From the NCBI GenBank assembly GCA_902595885.1, contig CACJRQ010000004.1, positions 1-64,000 on the forward strand: a stretch of DNA of 64,000 nucleotides, given 5' to 3'. Positions 45,474-61,745 of this stretch are shown here, in pieces. The notes under the pieces were generated by a model. That model saw nothing but the letters and a program-made list of their open reading frames with translations. It did not search any database and was not told the DNA's origin. Within the stretch, counting starts at the first letter, position 1. Each line of letters begins with the position of its first letter. The translations under genes and the position numbers were made by a program. Origin of the DNA: an uncultured Pelagibacteraceae bacterium. GTDB taxonomy: Bacteria; Pseudomonadota; Alphaproteobacteria; Pelagibacterales; Pelagibacteraceae.

Positions 45474-45590
45474 GCCTGGCAATGACCTACTCTTCCATGC
45501 CTTAAGACAAAGTACCATTGGCGCAGAAAGGCTTGACTTCCGAGTTCGGAATGGGATCGGGTATTGCCCTTTCGCAATAATTACCAGGCG
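45474..45590 (-). rRNA. rrf: 5S ribosomal RNA
   Basis: About 117 bases read on the minus strand. GCCTGGTAAT at the 5' end pairs with ATTGCCAGGC at the 3' end to form helix I. The middle has the conserved CCCGATCCCATTCCGAACTCGGAAG loop region and GGCATGGAAGAGTAGG near the 3' end. No 23S gene lies upstream; the next 18 kb upstream are polysaccharide genes. Such a separated 5S is a known feature of SAR11 genomes, where hypervariable region 2 lies between 23S and 5S. The exact ends are set from helix I and may be off by one or two bases. Confidence 0.95.
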
Positions 45591-47481: not shown

Positions 47482-48777
47482 TTAATTTTTATTTATTATG
47501 TTTTGATTTTTAAGGTATGAAAAAAATAAAGCAATACATAAAAAATTAAACATAGATAAATTATTATTGAAAAAATTACCTGAAGGCACAAAAGGAAATA
47601 AATTAACCAATGCAGATATAATCAAGACAATCGAACTTAAATCAAAATTGTTTAAATTTTTGAGATAAGATTTTAAGAAAGTAAAATAATATTTAATTAA
47701 ATATAAATAAAAAAGTAATAATAATAAAAAAACGAATATACCACATTCTGCAAGAATTTGGATGAAAAGATTGTGAGGATGATTATAACAATTATAGTGA
47801 TTTATTGATTTAGCCTTATATTTTAAATTCTCACAACTGTGCCTAAAATTATTTGGTCCAACACCAAAATATTTATTATCATTAAAAATATTTAATGATG
47901 TATTATATAGTTTTTCGTGGTGAGGTGAGAAAAAGAATAATCCTTTTTTTTCAAAAAAATATCCTGGTTTTTTATTTGAAAGACCTAATTCAATTATAGT
48001 TTGATCCACTACTCTCTTTTTTATATCTGAATTTATAAAAATAATCGATGAAAAAACAATTATAAAAGACAAAAAAATAATAGAAATATTTTTTTTATTA
48101 TCACTAATTAAAAAATATAAAAACAAATAAATAATAAATAAAAATAGTGGAGTTCTATCTCCAGATAGGATTATTATTAAACCTGAAATAAAAAAAATTA
48201 AAAAAATTAATAAATTTTCATATTTTTTATGCAATTTAAATAAACTAACACAAAACAAAATAATTGGAAAAATTCTTAAGATATAAGAGCCTAAAATATA
48301 TTCGTCATTAAAAAAACTAGCTATTCTGTGAACATTCTCTTTAACTGGGAAGCCAATTAAATTAAACTTAAACGTAAATTGAAATAAAGTATCTATTAAT
48401 AATAAAACAAAAGTAAAAAATGTAGTTAAAAACAAATATTTAAAAATAAAAGCATAATTTTCTACTAAATAACAAATAACCAAAAAGTATAAAAAAAATC
48501 TTAAATAAAATAGTGATGATTTTAGAGACCATAATAGATAATCAGATAATAATGATGAGATAATAATTAAAAAATAAAATGTTAAAAAAAAGATAAGATA
48601 ATTTTTGTATTTCTTTAATTCAAAGCTTTTTACTTTAAAAATTAAAAACAAAAGTGAACTTGTTATTATAATAAAATCTGGAATTGCTGGACCTAAAACT
48701 AAAGATGGTATAAAAATAATAAATCCATAAAAAAAATATTTGTCAATTAAACCATTTATTTTAGTTAAATCTGTCAT
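47482..48777 (-). CDS. O-antigen ligase/polymerase family membrane protein
   Basis: A 431-residue integral membrane protein with about eleven hydrophobic segments. The large periplasmic loop carries FGVGPNNFRHSCENL and ends in YNHPHNLFIQILAECGIF, the Wzy_C/WaaL motif with the conserved His-Asn pair before a helix. GDRTPLFLF lies in an earlier helix-loop. Such proteins either join the finished O-chain to lipid A core or polymerise repeat units. The PHN motif supports the ligase family; which activity applies is open. It overlaps the next gene by 17 bp. Confidence 0.8.
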   Translation of the reverse strand: MTDLTKINGLIDKYFFYGFIIFIPSLVLGPAIPDFIIITSSLLFLIFKVKSFELKKYKNYLIFFLTFYFLIIISSLLSDYLLWSLKSSLFYLRFFLYFLVICYLVENYAFIFKYLFLTTFFTFVLLLIDTLFQFTFKFNLIGFPVKENVHRIASFFNDEYILGSYILRIFPIILFCVSLFKLHKKYENLLIFLIFFISGLIIILSGDRTPLFLFIIYLFLYFLISDNKKNISIIFLSFIIVFSSIIFINSDIKKRVVDQTIIELGLSNKKPGYFFEKKGLFFFSPHHEKLYNTSLNIFNDNKYFGVGPNNFRHSCENLKYKAKSINHYNCYNHPHNLFIQILAECGIFVFLLLLLFYLYLIKYYFTFLKSYLKNLNNFDLSSIVLIISALVNLFPFVPSGNFFNNNLSMFNFLCIALFFSYLKNQNIINKN

Positions 48778-50079: not shown

Positions 50080-52428
50080 ATGCATTTTATTAAAAAAAAA
50101 ATTAATTTATTTTTTTATGTTATTTTTTTATTTCTCATAATTCTAAGTATCATTATTCATAATAATTGCAATTTTAACAGGTTAATTAATGTTATTACAG
50201 ATTATAATTATAATTACGCTTATTATTCATGCAAAAAACTTTCAAAATATAATTTGAAAAATTTTATAAAAGATAAAATATCAAATACGTATTTTGAAAA
50301 TGTAATAAGAAGCATTAATAAAAACCAAATCAAAAAATCTTATACTTTCCTAAAAAAAAATAATGAAATAATTAACTATGATATTAATAAAGATAAAATT
50401 CCTCAAAAAATTTTAGGAATTAAAAATGATATTAATCCATTCTTAAAAGAAAAAAATATAATAAATGATGATGAGGAAATAACCTGGAAAAGATCTCATG
50501 GAGGTTATAAAAATTTAAAATACAACAAATCTTCAAATCCAATAAATATAAATAATGTTGAAAATTTAACTTTAGAATGGTCTTACGATAGCATTGATCT
50601 TACAAGTAAACATAAGCTTGATAATGTGGAAGCTAATCCAATATTTCATAACGGAAAAATTTTCTCAGTAACCGCTGATAGAAAATTAGTTGCATTAAAT
50701 GCATCTAGTGGAGAGCTGTTATGGAAAAAGCAAGGTTTACTAACTCCTGCTAGGAGAGGTTTTTTATTAGATCAAGAAAAAGATAAATCCTATATATACA
50801 TCAATATTGGTGAGGCTATTGCCAAAATAAATTCTGCTAATGGAGTTTTAGACAAAAAATTTGGTAAAGAGGGAATTTTATATTCTGTAAATTCACCTAC
50901 ACCTCCAATAATTTATAAAAATAAACTCTATATAGTTACTTCTACAAAAATAATTACATTTGATAAAAATTCTGGAAAATTTTTAGAAAATATTCAAATT
51001 CATCCTAAAAATAAGGAATTTTCAAGAGGAGCTGTTGTTTGGGGTGGAAATGCATTTGATGAAGAAAAAGGGTATCTTTATGTAGTAACTGGGAATCCAA
51101 GACCTGCTTTGATTGGAATTAATAGACCAGGCCAAAATAAAAATGCAAATTCACTTGTTGCTATTGATGTAAACAAATCAAAAATAATTTGGTCCTTTCA
51201 AGATGTATTTCATGATTTATGGGATTTTGACATATCATCTCCACCTATAATTTCAGATTTAAAAATTAATAATAAGTATTTAGAAACTATAATAATATCA
51301 ACTAAAACTGGAAATACATATATTTTTGAGAGAAACACTGGAAATTCTTTTTTTGATTTAGATTTTAAAAAAACAATTCCATCAAACATACCTGGTGAAA
51401 AAGCTTTTCCATATCAAAGATATAATTCACTACCTGAAAAATTAATCAATATTGAATATAATCAGAATAGTTTTGATAAATTAAATAAAAATAAGCAAAA
51501 ATATATCAAAAATATTTTAAAAGACTCTTCTGCGGGGTGGTTTAATCCACCTGAAATTGGAAAAAAAACAATTATATTTGGCCTACATGGAGGTGCTACA
51601 TGGATGGGTTCTGCATATGATCCTATAAAGCAAGTTATTTTTACGCCTGTAGTAAATATCCCTTGGGTTCTTAAAGTAGAAGGAAAAACACTAGAGACAT
51701 CAATTCCATCGAATTTAAAAAAATTAAATAAAATATATCTTCAAAAATGTTCATCTTGTCACGGAAAGAACCGAAATGGTAATTTTGATCCAGAGTCTAA
51801 AAAAAATGTTGAAATCTTAAATGATTATATTCCCAGTTTAATTGGACATTCTCTGTCATTAGATAGAAATTTATATAGTGAATTATACAATTTAGACCGA
51901 ATTAAAAAAATTCACAAAAATATAAAAGTTAACAATCTTGAATTAGAAAAAATTAAAGAACTATTTATTAAACTTGATAAATATCTGCTGGATAATAATA
52001 AACTATTTTTAAGATATTATTGGTATAAATTTTTAGATCAAGAAAATTATCCTGCATCAAACCCTCCATGGGGAGAAATAATTGCTCTTGATGTATTATC
52101 TGGAAAAATTAAATGGAAAACAAAAAATGGTGAAATAAAAAATTATGAAAAAGGTATCTTTAGTGGAAGTCCTAGTTATGGAGGTCTTTCTTTATCATCA
52201 GGAGAAATATTATTTTCTACTGGAACAAATGATAAAAAGGTTTACGCGATTAACTCAAATAATGGTAAGATTTTATGGGATTACAAAATGGATGCTGCTG
52301 GTTCAGCGCCACCATTACTTTATAACATAAATGGTAAACAATATCTGACTGTTATTTCCAGCGGAGGTTTGTTTAGTGAATACAAAGAAAAAGCTTCTAA
52401 AATTTACACTTTTTCAATCAAAAATTAA
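50080..52428 (+). CDS. PQQ-dependent sugar/alcohol dehydrogenase with inserted cytochrome c domain
   Basis: A 782-residue quinoprotein. An N-terminal signal anchor (about 8-27) and a linker precede the beta-propeller from about residue 150. HDLWDFD (378-384) and STKTGN (Lys409) match the catalytic Asp and PQQ-contacting Lys regions of glucose-dehydrogenase-type quinoproteins. FSRGAVVWGGNAFDEEKGYLYVVTGNP, GGATWMGSAYDP and W-motifs such as SGKIKWKTKNG mark propeller blades. A haem c domain with C557-S-S-C560-H561 is inserted before the last blades, as in some membrane quinoproteins. No methionine occurs from 557 to 736, so the usual His/Met haem ligation is impossible. It is one of two plus-strand genes in the island. 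Substrate unknown. Confidence 0.85.
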   Translation: MHFIKKKINLFFYVIFLFLIILSIIIHNNCNFNRLINVITDYNYNYAYYSCKKLSKYNLKNFIKDKISNTYFENVIRSINKNQIKKSYTFLKKNNEIINYDINKDKIPQKILGIKNDINPFLKEKNIINDDEEITWKRSHGGYKNLKYNKSSNPININNVENLTLEWSYDSIDLTSKHKLDNVEANPIFHNGKIFSVTADRKLVALNASSGELLWKKQGLLTPARRGFLLDQEKDKSYIYINIGEAIAKINSANGVLDKKFGKEGILYSVNSPTPPIIYKNKLYIVTSTKIITFDKNSGKFLENIQIHPKNKEFSRGAVVWGGNAFDEEKGYLYVVTGNPRPALIGINRPGQNKNANSLVAIDVNKSKIIWSFQDVFHDLWDFDISSPPIISDLKINNKYLETIIISTKTGNTYIFERNTGNSFFDLDFKKTIPSNIPGEKAFPYQRYNSLPEKLINIEYNQNSFDKLNKNKQKYIKNILKDSSAGWFNPPEIGKKTIIFGLHGGATWMGSAYDPIKQVIFTPVVNIPWVLKVEGKTLETSIPSNLKKLNKIYLQKCSSCHGKNRNGNFDPESKKNVEILNDYIPSLIGHSLSLDRNLYSELYNLDRIKKIHKNIKVNNLELEKIKELFIKLDKYLLDNNKLFLRYYWYKFLDQENYPASNPPWGEIIALDVLSGKIKWKTKNGEIKNYEKGIFSGSPSYGGLSLSSGEILFSTGTNDKKVYAINSNNGKILWDYKMDAAGSAPPLLYNINGKQYLTVISSGGLFSEYKEKASKIYTFSIKN

Positions 52429-55995: not shown

Positions 55996-57429
55996 TTAAA
56001 ATTGATTGGTTAGGTAATTATACAAAATTGCTGAATATTCATATAAAATTATACCTTTTTTATTTGATTTTTCAAAAAATCTTAATTTATTTGAAGGCCA
56101 ATCAACTGTTTGATGAAAATTAATACTTATATCATCAGAATATTTATTCCATATTAATTTTACTCTTTTTGTAAGATATGGTGATGAAACAAAAAATACT
56201 TCGTCAATATTTTTGCTAATGAGTCTATTGTATAAATATTCTAAATTTTTTGATGAACTTCCTAAATCTTGATAAATAATTTCAATTTTTTCTTTATTAA
56301 CACCTCTTGATTGTAGCAAATTTTCAATTATTCTCTGCTCCGTTATAACTTGTATTCTACCCAGTATATAAATATTAATATCATTATTATATTTTAAAAT
56401 ATTTTGTAAGTCTGTATATCTATATTTGTAACCTTGATTAACATAACTTTCCCATTCATGACCAGAATAAATTACAACAGTATCAATTTTTTTATTATCG
56501 AGAGTTTCAACAAGTAAATTATTACCTAGTAATTTAAATAATGGTGAAAAAAATATAAGATATATAATAAAGAAAATACCAAGTACAAATTGTCTAAAAT
56601 TTATTTTGAAAAAGTTTAGTAATTTTTTTAACAAAGGTCTAATTGACTTATATGCAATGCTGAATAAAAAAATGTAAATGTTTATGAAATTTTTTTTATT
56701 TAAATACATGCTGCTTATTAAATTAATAGATTTAATTGTTTGAAAATTATAATCTGAATGAAGACTTTTTGACCTCCTTCTTATAAATACAAGTGGTTTA
56801 ATTTCATAAATGAAATTAGAATTATAAGTTTTCAAAATATTAAACCAAAGTTCTAAATCTTCTATACCAACAAAATTGACAGATGTATTAAATCTAAGTT
56901 TCTTAAATATACTTCTGTGAATTACTGCTGAAGAAAAAGCAATCGGATTATATAAAAAAAGCCACTCTCTATTTTTCTTGATTAGGTATGAGAAAATAAT
57001 TTGTAGAATAGTTCTAAAATAATATATGGAAGAATTTAAAACTTTTTTATTTTTAAAATACTTACAATTTGTAAAAAAAAGTTTTGTGGAATTTTTAATT
57101 TTTGATACTTGATACTCGAGTTTATTATTCATCCAGATATCATCAGAGTCTAAAAATGCTATATATTCACTTTTACATTTTTTTATTCCAAAATTTCTGG
57201 GTATAGCTGCTGATGAACTATTTTTTTTTAATTTATATAATTTAATTTTATTTTTATATTTTTTTGCGTATTTTTTACATATTTCAAATGTCTTATCAGT
57301 TGAACAATCATCTACAATAATGATTTTATAATTCTTATATGTTTGATTTAGTACAGAATTGATCGTTTCTTTAATATACTTTTCAGAATTAAATGTTGTG
57401 ATTAACACATCTATAGAAATTGACTTCAT
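55996..57429 (-). CDS. GT2 glycosyltransferase fused to a membrane segment and a DUF218 (YdcF/ElyC-like) domain
   Basis: A 477-residue fusion. Residues 1 to about 230 are a GT-A glycosyltransferase: VLITTFNSEKYIKETINSVLNQTYKNYKIIIVDDCSTDKT, AIPRNFGIKKCKSEYIAFLDSDDIW with the DSDD metal site, and GIEDLELWFNIL. Hydrophobic stretches lie near 243-262 and 279-300. From about 313, IDTVVIYSGHEWES, IYILGRIQVITEQRIIENLLQSRGV, LGSSSKNLEYL and VFFVSSPYLTKRVKLIW follow the DUF218 pattern. DUF218 proteins such as ElyC and SanA are linked to envelope polymer metabolism. I do not recall this fusion as standard. The GT would be cytoplasmic; the side of the DUF218 domain depends on whether one or two helices cross. 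Confidence 0.75.
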   Translation of the reverse strand: MKSISIDVLITTFNSEKYIKETINSVLNQTYKNYKIIIVDDCSTDKTFEICKKYAKKYKNKIKLYKLKKNSSSAAIPRNFGIKKCKSEYIAFLDSDDIWMNNKLEYQVSKIKNSTKLFFTNCKYFKNKKVLNSSIYYFRTILQIIFSYLIKKNREWLFLYNPIAFSSAVIHRSIFKKLRFNTSVNFVGIEDLELWFNILKTYNSNFIYEIKPLVFIRRRSKSLHSDYNFQTIKSINLISSMYLNKKNFINIYIFLFSIAYKSIRPLLKKLLNFFKINFRQFVLGIFFIIYLIFFSPLFKLLGNNLLVETLDNKKIDTVVIYSGHEWESYVNQGYKYRYTDLQNILKYNNDINIYILGRIQVITEQRIIENLLQSRGVNKEKIEIIYQDLGSSSKNLEYLYNRLISKNIDEVFFVSSPYLTKRVKLIWNKYSDDISINFHQTVDWPSNKLRFFEKSNKKGIILYEYSAILYNYLTNQF

Positions 57430-57445: not shown

Positions 57446-58453
57446 TCATTTTGCTACTTTGTGTTTATTAAATTTATAAATTACTAATAAATAAATTAAT
57501 AAAAATATAGAGATTGAAATTAAACTATTATTGAAAATTTTTAATAAAATAAATGGAAGAACAAAACTAAAGATAATAATTATTATTGAAAAATTTCCTT
57601 TAAATTTATCTAAAATAATATGATGAAAATGATTTTTATCTGGTAAAAAAGGATTTTTATTTTCTAATATTCTTGCAAAGTACAATCTTACAGTATCAAC
57701 AATAGGGAAAATTAAAATTGTAGCAATTTCATCGCTTTTTATATTTAAATAGTTATGATTATTTATTATTATTAAAGAAAAAATAAATGACATTAAGTAA
57801 GTACCTCCATCACCTAAAAAAGCTTTGCCTTGAAAATTTTTAATTGCAAAAAACAGAATTGATATTATTAGAAAAAATAGGAAAAAATTAAATTCTAAAC
57901 TTTTACTAAATAAATAAATTATTAAAAAAAAATAAAATGAAACAGATTGTAAATTTGTTCCATCAAACATATTCATAGATATAACAAAAACTAAAATACA
58001 ACAAAATGTAAAGAGAAAACTAATTTTATTTAAAAGAATTTTTTCATTTAAAAAACTTAAATTTAGCTCTTCAACTAAAACACTTTTATTAAAATATAAA
58101 AAATTAAAAATAAAAATAGACAGTAAAACTAATCTAACATTTGGAGAAGAGTCAAACTTATCGTCATACAAACCTAATAAAAAAATAAAAGTAAAAGTTA
58201 AAAAAAAAGATAATCCTACTTTTATATTTTCGATCATTAAAATAGATCTAAGCGAATTATCAAGAAAAGAAATATAAATGAAGAAGAAGAAAATATTAGT
58301 ATATATAATTATACCACCCATAATTGGTGTGGGCTCACTATGAATTTTTCTTTTTGAGGGGTAATCATAAATATTAATAAATTTTGATATTCTTTCATAA
58401 ATAAGGAAAAACAGTATATTCAAAGCTAAAGTTAAAATTATTAACTTTTCCAT
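57446..58453 (-). CDS. Undecaprenyl-phosphate N-acetylhexosamine-1-phosphate transferase (WecA/MraY superfamily)
   Basis: A 335-residue integral membrane enzyme with about ten helices. KRKIHSEPTPIMGGIIIY, LGLYDDKFDSSPNVR (the Asp-Asp catalytic site), MNMFDGTNLQS, FLGDGGTYLMSF and PIVDTVRLYFARILENKNPFLPDKNHFHHIIL match WecA-type transferases, the last being the sugar-recognition HIH-like loop. It should start each polysaccharide unit by moving GlcNAc-1-P or a related sugar phosphate to undecaprenyl phosphate. It overlaps the dioxygenase-like gene by 13 bp. Confidence 0.9.
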   Translation of the reverse strand: MEKLIILTLALNILFFLIYERISKFINIYDYPSKRKIHSEPTPIMGGIIIYTNIFFFFIYISFLDNSLRSILMIENIKVGLSFFLTFTFIFLLGLYDDKFDSSPNVRLVLLSIFIFNFLYFNKSVLVEELNLSFLNEKILLNKISFLFTFCCILVFVISMNMFDGTNLQSVSFYFFLIIYLFSKSLEFNFFLFFLIISILFFAIKNFQGKAFLGDGGTYLMSFIFSLIIINNHNYLNIKSDEIATILIFPIVDTVRLYFARILENKNPFLPDKNHFHHIILDKFKGNFSIIIIIFSFVLPFILLKIFNNSLISISIFLLIYLLVIYKFNKHKVAK

Positions 58454-59187
58454 TGTATTTTCTCTTTATTCAAAAATAAATAATCCAATAACGGAAATTT
58501 TGGTTCTAGATGAAATTGCTTCTGATAAAGTTTTTTATCTTTTGTCCAATTAAAACTTGGATTTAACTGAAGCATTATTTGAGAACGTGGTTTTGATTTA
58601 GGGTTTCCCGCTTTATGAAAGCACTCATTAGGATTTAACATTAAAAGATCACTCTCTTTTCCTGTGAAAATAAAAGATTTCTTTTTATTCATTATGTTAA
58701 CATTTTTCTTCGAACTAGTTTTATCATAAATTTGTATGCCCCCATCTCTCGATCCAATTTTTTGTAACGGAACAATTAATTTAATTATATTTTTACTAAA
58801 AGCTTTGTCTTTATGCCAATGATTTGCATACCAACCACTATTTTGGTCTTTTATTTTTATATTATAAGTTTTGTATGCCAGAATAAAATTAATATCAAAT
58901 TTTGACCCTAACTTTTTTTCAAGTATTTCTCTTAAATTATTTTTTATAAACAAAGTAAAAATAATTTCATCTAAATCTTTTTTTCCAAGTATATATTTTT
59001 TTAAATATTTGTTTTTTGAAATAGTTTTTTTCTTGTTGAGATTAATATTAAGTTTATTTTTTAACTTTATAATTTCATAACCCTTTTTAATAAAAGGATT
59101 ATTTTTATTAAATGATTTTTTTTTAAATAAAATATTTTCAATATTAGTGGCAAAATAATTATAAAGATTAAAAAAAAAATTTAACAT
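58441..59187 (-). CDS. Fe(II)/2-oxoglutarate dioxygenase-like protein (phytanoyl-CoA dioxygenase type)
   Basis: A 248-residue cytoplasmic protein. ANHWHKDKAF gives His125 and Asp127, NPNECFHKAGNPKSKPRSQIML gives His191 and Arg201: the HxD...H iron triad and 2-oxoglutarate Arg of the PhyH-like jelly-roll dioxygenases, in the right order and spacing. GGIQIYDK and SDLLMLNP are the strands between. Placed between the WecA-like and TviB-like genes, it may hydroxylate a sugar, lipid carrier or other envelope component; the substrate is unknown. The first 100 residues are basic and poorly conserved in type. Confidence 0.65.
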   Translation of the reverse strand: MLNFFFNLYNYFATNIENILFKKKSFNKNNPFIKKGYEIIKLKNKLNINLNKKKTISKNKYLKKYILGKKDLDEIIFTLFIKNNLREILEKKLGSKFDINFILAYKTYNIKIKDQNSGWYANHWHKDKAFSKNIIKLIVPLQKIGSRDGGIQIYDKTSSKKNVNIMNKKKSFIFTGKESDLLMLNPNECFHKAGNPKSKPRSQIMLQLNPSFNWTKDKKLYQKQFHLEPKFPLLDYLFLNKEKIQWKS

Positions 59188-59191
59188 AAAA

Positions 59192-60454
59192 TTAGAGTGT
59201 AATAGTATTTTTATAATCGAAAATATTTTTTAAATCAAAAACAATCTTATATTTAGAAAATTTAGTAATTTTTTTTAAACCCATTTTTTTAAAATAATCA
59301 TGGCCTACTGCAACTAAAACGGAGTCAAATTTTTTTTTAGGTAGTTTATTTTTAATTGTAAGACCTTTTTTTTTTAGCTGATCAATTTGATCCATTAAAA
59401 ATGGATCAAAAATTTCATATTTAATTTTCTTTCTATTAATAATTTTAATTATATCAAATATTAAAGAGTTCCTATAATCATTACAATTTTCCTTAAATGT
59501 AAGACCTAATATAAGTAAACTTTTTAAACTTTTACTTGTTTTATTCTTAAAATATTTATCTAATTTATTGATTACAAAATTTGGCATTTCATTATTCAAT
59601 CTTCTGCCAGATAAAATAATTTTAGGATTATATTTTTTTTTTTTTGCAATACTTGCTAAATAATAAGGATCTACTCCAATACAATGACCTCCGACTAGTC
59701 CTGGTTTAAAATCTAAAAAATTCCATTTAGTATTTGCGGCTTTTAGTACATCGTATGTATTGATTTCAAGCTTATCAAAAATCTTTGAGAGTTCATTTAT
59801 AAAAGCTATATTAATATCTCTTTGTGAATTTTCGATTACTTTTGCTGCTTCCGCGACTTTTATAGAACTAGCAACAAATGTTCCTGCTTTAATAGTTTTT
59901 TTATAAACATGATTAATTGTTTTCAAAATATTTGGAGAAGAACCAGAGACAACTTTTATTATATTTTGAATTTTTCTTTTTTTATCACCAGGATTAATTC
60001 TTTCTGGAGAGTAGCCACAATGAAAATCTTTTTTATATTTTAACTTAGAAAATTTTTCCAAAATTGGTACACAAATATTTTCGGTTACACCTGGATACAC
60101 AGTAGATTCAAAAACTACAATAGAATCTGGTTTTAATATTTTGCCTACACTTTGTGTTGCATACTTTAAATTTCTTAAATCTGGATTTTTATTCTTGTGA
60201 ATAGGAGTTGGGACAGCGATTATAAAAAAATTACAATCATCTAATAATTTAATGTTATTTGTAAATGAAATATTTTTAATTTTAGCGATTTCTTTTCTAG
60301 TAAATTCTAATGTTTGGTCATAACCATTGCATAAATTATCAATTCTTTTTTTATTAATATCAAAACCTTTTACCTTAAATTTTTTACTCAAACAGATAGC
60401 TAGAGGCAGTCCAACGTAACCTAGTCCTATCACGCCTATTTTAATTTTTTTCAT
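59192..60454 (-). CDS. UDP-N-acetyl-hexosamine 6-dehydrogenase (TviB/WbpA-like)
   Basis: A 420-residue NAD-dependent nucleotide sugar dehydrogenase that oxidises C6 to the uronate. It has IGVIGLGYVGLPLAICLSKKF at the N-terminus, FFIIAVPTPI, ESTVYPGVTEN and YSPERINPGD. The catalytic GLVGGHCIGVDPYYLA carries Cys258, and the C-terminal domain includes ILGLTFKENCNDYRNS. The VGGHCIGVDPYYL form and SGRRLNNEMP favour the UDP-GlcNAc (TviB/WbpA) branch over UDP-glucose dehydrogenases. It should make an acidic amino sugar for the polymer. It overlaps the upstream gene by 14 bp. Confidence 0.88.
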   Translation of the reverse strand: MKKIKIGVIGLGYVGLPLAICLSKKFKVKGFDINKKRIDNLCNGYDQTLEFTRKEIAKIKNISFTNNIKLLDDCNFFIIAVPTPIHKNKNPDLRNLKYATQSVGKILKPDSIVVFESTVYPGVTENICVPILEKFSKLKYKKDFHCGYSPERINPGDKKRKIQNIIKVVSGSSPNILKTINHVYKKTIKAGTFVASSIKVAEAAKVIENSQRDINIAFINELSKIFDKLEINTYDVLKAANTKWNFLDFKPGLVGGHCIGVDPYYLASIAKKKKYNPKIILSGRRLNNEMPNFVINKLDKYFKNKTSKSLKSLLILGLTFKENCNDYRNSLIFDIIKIINRKKIKYEIFDPFLMDQIDQLKKKGLTIKNKLPKKKFDSVLVAVGHDYFKKMGLKKITKFSKYKIVFDLKNIFDYKNTITL

Positions 60455-61745
60455 TTTGAAAATATTTTTTAATTTTATTAAAAAAACTTTTGAGTTCTAC
60501 TTCTGAATTTTGCTCAAAAAAATTTTCAATATTGGTAAATGCATATCCTTTACTATCATGCATACCATTTTTTAATGCAACAAATGATATAAATTTTTTA
60601 AAATTAATTATTTTATCTTCAAAATTAACCTCAAATTTATTTTGAATTTCATGTGGATATGTTAAAGTTACAAATAGTGATTTGTTCCTAATATCTAGTT
60701 CTTCAAACAATTTATTTCCATTCATATCCTTAAGTTTACTTAGCTTTTCATGTGCATCTTTGGTCTCTTGATTATTACTGAACTCAATTAAAAAATCTCT
60801 AGTCATTCTAGATTTTGTATTTTTATATTTTATATTTAAAGTATCTAAAAAAAAACTTGGATTATTTATTCTATAATAATATTTTTTATACTTATATGGA
60901 ACTTGAGTTAATCCAGTTAAAACTAGAAAATTTTTATTTAATTTTAAATAATCACCAATTATTTCATTATAAAAAAATAAAGTATCCCTAAAAGGATCTT
61001 CATTTTTTTTTATATACCATTCAGGGTTTTTATCTCCGTCAAAATTTTCAAGGTTGAAAAAATAATGATGCTGTATGTGCGCCGCACCATTAAAAAAAAC
61101 ACTACTAAAATTTGTAATATTATTCTTTAAATTGTTAAGATAAATTTCATGTAAAAGAAATTCTAAAAGAAATACCCTGTACCATTTTTTAAAAAAAATT
61201 TTTGATAAAATTTTAAATAAATAAAAATATTTTTTAAACCTCACAAACTTTAAAATAGAGATAATAATTATTAAATAATTTAATAAACCAACCTTTCTCT
61301 GTGAGTTATTATTAATTACCTCTGACAAACATTTTGAAATTAAATTATTAAAATAATTCTTGTCTCCTGTAGTTTTCGTCCATGGATCTGAGATAAAGAA
61401 AGCAGGGCTATTTAATCTGTTAACTGTATTCATTGGACAGATAGCACCAACTCTGTATCCTAAATTTTCTATTTTTTCATAGATTTGCTCATCTTGTAAA
61501 TTTTCTACATCTCCTAATCTAAAAATTTTATGTTCAGCAGCAGACTTACCAGTATTTAAAGTAACCCATTGAATCCATGGTTCAAGAGATTCATATTTTA
61601 TTTCTGAACTTGTGTGACAATTACTTGATTTGATTAAATTATTTAAATTAACCAGGTTATATTTTTCTATGTAATATTTTGCATAATCAAAATTAAGCTC
61701 ATTTAATTGAATTAATAGTAAATTTTTTTCTTGATTATTTCGCAT
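60441..61745 (-). CDS. Alkaline-phosphatase-superfamily-like protein of unknown function
   Basis: A 434-residue protein I do not recognise as a named enzyme. The start LLLIQLNELNFDYAKYY and the later EPWIQWVTLNTGKSAAEHKIFRLGD (residues 55-79) resemble the metal strand and TG..p..HGI block of phosphodiesterase-type alkaline phosphatases. The C-terminal LKNGMHDSKGYAF resembles their late metal loop. Yet the Thr/Ser nucleophile position is taken by Glu-Pro, and the first metal Asp by Asn or Glu. It may be a non-hydrolytic member or act differently. One weakly hydrophobic stretch lies near residue 150-175. Context suggests polysaccharide modification. Confidence 0.5.
   Translation of the reverse strand: MRNNQEKNLLLIQLNELNFDYAKYYIEKYNLVNLNNLIKSSNCHTSSEIKYESLEPWIQWVTLNTGKSAAEHKIFRLGDVENLQDEQIYEKIENLGYRVGAICPMNTVNRLNSPAFFISDPWTKTTGDKNYFNNLISKCLSEVINNNSQRKVGLLNYLIIIISILKFVRFKKYFYLFKILSKIFFKKWYRVFLLEFLLHEIYLNNLKNNITNFSSVFFNGAAHIQHHYFFNLENFDGDKNPEWYIKKNEDPFRDTLFFYNEIIGDYLKLNKNFLVLTGLTQVPYKYKKYYYRINNPSFFLDTLNIKYKNTKSRMTRDFLIEFSNNQETKDAHEKLSKLKDMNGNKLFEELDIRNKSLFVTLTYPHEIQNKFEVNFEDKIINFKKFISFVALKNGMHDSKGYAFTNIENFFEQNSEVELKSFFNKIKKYFQNEKN

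Follow-up and report, generated by a model that had tools for sequence, protein, structure and literature searches.

A SAR11 glycosyltransferase joined to a divergent DUF218 domain by one membrane helix

Systems close to the protein reported here have been described in E. coli and, for its glycosyltransferase (GT) part, in B. subtilis. ElyC and SanA are DUF218 controllers of E. coli envelope polymer synthesis with no settled reaction or ligand. ElyC is reported to act together with cyclic ECA in lowering ECA-PG post-transcriptionally, and the proposed signal that it reads is the cyclic ECA of the periplasm (PMC8609368, PMC12212991); SanA acts in the periplasm, and its residues T125, H149 and E182 are each essential (PMC12176290). 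The present protein is like ElyC in being a membrane-bound, (by prediction) periplasmic DUF218 protein tied to a WecA-started polysaccharide, and like the bitopic SanA in carrying a transmembrane (TM) helix closely before the DUF218 domain; however, ElyC is encoded on its own and has two TM helices, and neither ElyC nor SanA has a GT. YdcF of E. coli (structure 3ca8), the top fold match found here, differs further in being described as cytoplasmic and in lacking both TM helix and GT. TuaG and TuaH, the B. subtilis teichuronic acid glycosyltransferases, provide the best NCBIfam models for the two kinds of GT involved (GT2 and GT-B, respectively), but the fusions score far under the equivalog cut-offs and the matching models span the GT part only. 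A glycosyltransferase joined to DUF218 by one membrane helix is a new architecture of known families; no such fusion was apparent from titles, abstracts and passages of openly available papers that mention both DUF218 and glycosyltransferase, and the architecture may have been listed before.

The window, i.e., the whole stretch of 64,000 nucleotides analysed, belongs to a SAR11 genome of ~1.1 Mb whose pntA sRNA and gene order fit Pelagibacter; all features below lie on its minus strand unless stated otherwise. A preliminary description, made from the letters and their reading frames, had claimed a fusion of GT, membrane segment and DUF218, without giving a strand, and had suggested profile searches, topology prediction and a survey of other genomes as checks. 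The gene is a single minus-strand frame (55996-57429) that runs from ATG to stop without an internal stop and encodes 477 aa, in the order GT2 domain, one TM helix (about residues 282-300) and divergent DUF218 domain (residues 310-477), an architecture matched in 12 other SAR11 genomes. The claimed fusion is therefore confirmed by the intact frame, the GT2 domain, the predicted TM helix and the family evidence for DUF218. In the predicted structure of the full-length protein (mean pLDDT 81), a long helix likewise leads into a domain of alternating alpha and beta elements.

The N-terminal part (residues 1-245; 56695..57429) is a TuaG-like GT2 catalytic domain of the GT-A type. Residues 8-178 match Glycos_transf_2 (PF00535) in the whole-protein Pfam scan with E 5.3e-35 and 121.3 bits vs. 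a cut-off of 23.3, and the acidic metal motif DSDD occupies residues 94-97, which bears out the intact GT-A domain proposed earlier. The TuaG model NF047683 gives E 1.1e-32 and 113.7 bits vs. an equivalog cut-off of 400 bits, so the protein does not qualify as a TuaG equivalog. Matching solved GT2 structures comprise TarP, TarS and heparosan synthase, and GT2 structures dominate the fold search with the full-length model.

As for the membrane part, hydrophobic segments had been noted after the GT; a single strong TM segment stands out by hydropathy, at residues 282-300 (56530..56586; hydropathy 2.28), which follows a K/R-rich stretch and has a net charge of +4 on its N-side and 0 on its C-side, and the model has a continuous helix at residues 248-293 and a second one at 297-304. 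Hydropathy and charge thus predict one TM helix with the N-terminus inside and the C-terminus outside, and relatives of the fusion have the same pattern. By the positive-inside charge, the GT is predicted to be cytoplasmic and the DUF218 domain periplasmic, so the GT's immediate product would be across the membrane from DUF218 until it is flipped.

The C-terminal domain (55999..56502) is divergent, and the window's module (i.e., TM helix plus DUF218) has the second weakest HMM score among 13. The whole-protein Pfam scan at E<=1 did not list DUF218, and the C-terminal piece alone gave a borderline match to PF02698 (E 3e-4, 21.1 bits, cut-off 27.6 bits), so the question was settled by the family. 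PF02698 is matched by all ten scanned family members, with E values down to 2.4e-15; its cut-off is passed by the modules of eight relatives (34.7 to 56.6 bits), and in two of the relatives (L042 and L096) both curated cut-offs, for GT and for DUF218, are passed within one reading frame. In hhalign comparisons with stand-alone DUF218 proteins of the SAR11 order, the module-family profile reached E 6.9e-17 and the window domain alone 4.8e-6; against an HMM of these stand-alone proteins the window domain scored 19.1 bits, the best of 2,000 shuffles 10.1. With the DUF218 model (pLDDT 77), no plain Foldseek match reached E<=0.001 and the top 50 were free of DUF218 proteins, and the module profile found nothing relevant among sequences of solved structures. 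Of the chains that VIA-align re-aligned with the same model, YdcF ranked first (Z 12.4 over 154 residues, 3.7 A, 13% identity), the next match having Z 10.5. Together, relatives, profile comparison and predicted model secure the divergent tail as a DUF218 fold. The ElyC equivalog model PRK10494 was absent among the NCBIfam matches of the window protein, which has a single TM helix vs. ElyC's two. The same genome also encodes a separate, ElyC-like stand-alone DUF218 protein (L008:1264-2028; G000:C8:33511-34011).

With the survey of other genomes, there are 13 SAR11 genomes, all within one genus, in which a glycosyltransferase ends in the module. Four carriers have a TuaG-like GT2 (the window, L040, L042 and L096) and eight a GT-B (L015, L041, L043, L045, L046, L049, L097 and L098), the GT-B domain being TuaH-like in all three members tested (L041, L045 and L098); the remaining one (L044) is truncated by a contig end, and its N-terminal part, 186 aa long, matches nothing in Pfam. 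Not counting the window's own genome, the module is present in 7 genomes of a 397-genome sample of the order and in 9 of an overlapping 399-genome sample of the genus. When 297 genomes of the order were surveyed with PF02698, all DUF218 matches other than the fusions lay in frames of <=277 aa. Class and phylum samples, searched with the module profile, gave no GT fusion among the matches, as judged by frame length; this profile detects ordinary DUF218 proteins less readily, so fusions may exist elsewhere. These matches were short frames or, in one distant genome of the same class (L070), a DUF218 behind a long repeat-like N-terminal part, which is another DUF218 architecture. Viral contigs scanned for the module by sequence and alignment yielded no relatives. 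When the whole protein was searched against genome contigs, seven loci matched its N-terminal GT2 part only. Two weak matches of the order survey were discarded, their frames being assigned by eye as HemD-like (L048) and as an unrelated, dinucleotide-binding-like one (L047).

Phylogenetically, the fused modules group together in a single clade, separate from the stand-alone DUF218 proteins of the SAR11 order (UFBoot/SH-aLRT 99/98; 97/92 in a larger tree that also included the E. coli proteins), and they do not group with SanA and YgjQ. Within this clade, there is no clean split between GT2 and GT-B carriers, with three partner-label changes and many weak branches. The module has therefore probably changed GT partners at least once.

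The residues that SanA requires are mostly, but not fully, retained. The positions of T125 and H149 hold Thr and His in all 18 aligned stand-alone proteins of the SAR11 order as well as in SanA, ElyC and YgjQ, and C and M in the alignment of YdcF. Among the fused modules, Thr is found in 10/13, His in 10/13 and Glu in 13/13, the full triad in nine, with one more having Ser for Thr. The window copy has S392 (56254..56256) at the T125 position, L419 (56173..56175) at the H149 position and E464 (56038..56040) at the E182 position, and therefore does not have the SanA-type triad, although it keeps the SG motif and R422. The pairing of E464 with E182 comes from profile alignment (hhalign vs. SanA and YgjQ) and the E-x-x-A/G motif, MAFFT not having aligned the two. 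Triads are also altered in L096 (Ser for Thr), L098 (Leu for Thr, Ser for His) and L015 (Leu for His). The L419 codon, CTT, is one base from CAT, so an assembly error at this base is conceivable, but two other members are also without the His. Given that SanA needs the His that Leu replaces here, the window copy would be a poor choice for a substrate assay and intact-triad relatives, such as L041 and L097, better ones.

The fusion is part of a polysaccharide island located past the 5S rRNA gene (45474..45588; Rfam RF00001) and pntA/pntB, as in HVR2 of Pelagibacter, a region flanked by 5S and 23S genes (PMC2217521); the 5S gene thus serves as a boundary landmark of an HVR2-type surface-polysaccharide island. 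Directly upstream of the fusion, at a spacing of 16 bp, is a gene for a polyprenyl-phosphate sugar-1-phosphate transferase of the WecA/MraY type (57446..58453; PF00953, E 2.7e-11), which is likely co-transcribed. The island also holds a UDP-sugar dehydrogenase of the TuaD/WecC type (59192..60454; PF03721, PF00984, PF03720), which recurs near fusions, a Wzy_C O-antigen ligase/polymerase-like protein (47482..48777; PF04932, E 1.9e-15), a DegT aminotransferase, a sugar nucleotidyltransferase and epimerases. Similar kinds of genes recur around the fused relatives, with Wzy_C or Wzx adjacent in several loci. The association with WecA-like genes is not exclusive, one locus (L050) having none on its contig. 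In SAR11 genomes generally, a second WecA-like gene is common, of the island kind that scores more weakly. In control loci, i.e., GT2 relatives in fusion-free genomes, 6 of 11 have a tail-less GT2 of 246-254 aa beside a WecA-like gene; hence, the adjacency belongs to the GT2 as much as to the fusion, and the tail is an optional addition to a lipid-linked glycan step. Three other genes may be mentioned: a 434-aa frame without Pfam match (60441-61745) with homologues of ~40-44% identity in the islands of L049, L051, L055 and L058, a 248-aa frame without Pfam match (58441-59187) that recurs near fusions in L049, L051, L056 and L058, and, inside the island but on the plus strand, opposite to most neighbours, a beta-propeller dehydrogenase of the PQQ type that carries the haem motif CxxCH (50080-52428).

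Taken together, we tentatively favor the view, which we regard as quite possible but short of probable, that the fusion is a bitopic enzyme of polysaccharide assembly that carries its own control module in the periplasm. In the cytoplasm, the GT would extend by one sugar the undecaprenyl-PP-sugar that the neighbouring WecA-like enzyme produces, an acceptor suggested by gene adjacency; on the periplasmic face, the DUF218 module would meet the lipid-linked glycan once this has been flipped, or else the polymer or the free carrier. The module may then adjust flux through the pathway, as proposed for ElyC with enterobacterial common antigen, the closest precedent, except that here it would be wired to a GT of the pathway, with the signal passing, conjecturally, through the TM helix. 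In most members the module may also perform SanA-type chemistry; in the window copy, binding, sensing or docking is likelier than catalysis because the triad His is gone, and this copy is most likely a periplasmic sensor or control module. One module clade carried by two unrelated GT folds, the N-in/C-out charge pattern, the neighbours (WecA-like transferase, Wzy_C, Wzx and UDP-sugar dehydrogenase), the tail-less GT2 relatives beside WecA-like genes and the roles of ElyC and SanA all support this view. The proposal that the fusion reveals the DUF218 substrate, as the lipid-linked product of the transferase, thus survives in part. The tie to lipid-linked glycan assembly stands, given the polysaccharide island; however, the charge pattern probably puts the module and the immediate product of the GT on opposite sides of the membrane, and two GT folds share the module, so the common factor should not be the particular sugar product of one GT. 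It would rather be something shared, e.g., one of the three candidates just named for the periplasmic face. A bolder extension, which we consider rather unlikely, is a mobile TM-DUF218 cassette joined C-terminally to whichever GT serves a given SAR11 surface polysaccharide, acting as a cross-membrane feedback sensor or editor of its own flipped product (i.e., a one-protein ElyC loop).

Alternatively, the proposed substrate idea can be kept with its topology corrected: the DUF218 domain would be a periplasmic enzyme that hydrolyses or transfers the flipped undecaprenyl-linked glycan or carrier in the pathway of its GT. Thr/Ser, His and Glu, the residues essential in SanA, are kept in 10/13 modules, and Wzy_C and the WecA-like transferase are close by, but the His is absent from the window copy, L015 and L098, DUF218 proteins have no demonstrated reaction, and several GT types bear the same module, making this possible yet on the unlikely side. 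Less likely again is a mere membrane tether or scaffold, in which TM-DUF218 anchors a peripheral GT and docks to Wzx/Wzy, with DUF218 as a binding domain only; the movement of the module between GTs, the Wzy_C or Wzx genes adjacent in several loci and the altered triads fit this, whereas the triad retained in most members and the island GT2 relatives of ~250 aa that manage without the module do not. It is doubtful that the window's tail is decaying or neutral (i.e., that the fusion once mattered and its DUF218 part is losing function), even with Leu one base away from the triad His, Ser for Thr and the low HMM score, given a frame intact to the last residue, the preserved E464, SG motif and R422, and a fold that is still recognisable. 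Finally, chance resemblance to DUF218, or a sequencing or assembly error joining two genes, can be dismissed in spite of the window copy's sub-threshold Pfam score, since 13 genomes share the architecture in continuous frames, relatives pass the curated cut-offs and the fold matches.

The fused family bears on DUF218 proteins more broadly. That one module occurs on two GT folds narrows the search for a DUF218 ligand to a periplasmic-side feature common to lipid-linked glycan pathways, and, for comparison, the family offers one module in natural forms that keep the triad and in others that lack it. SAR11 are among the ocean's most abundant bacteria, and it is the polysaccharide island holding this fusion that sets their cell surface.
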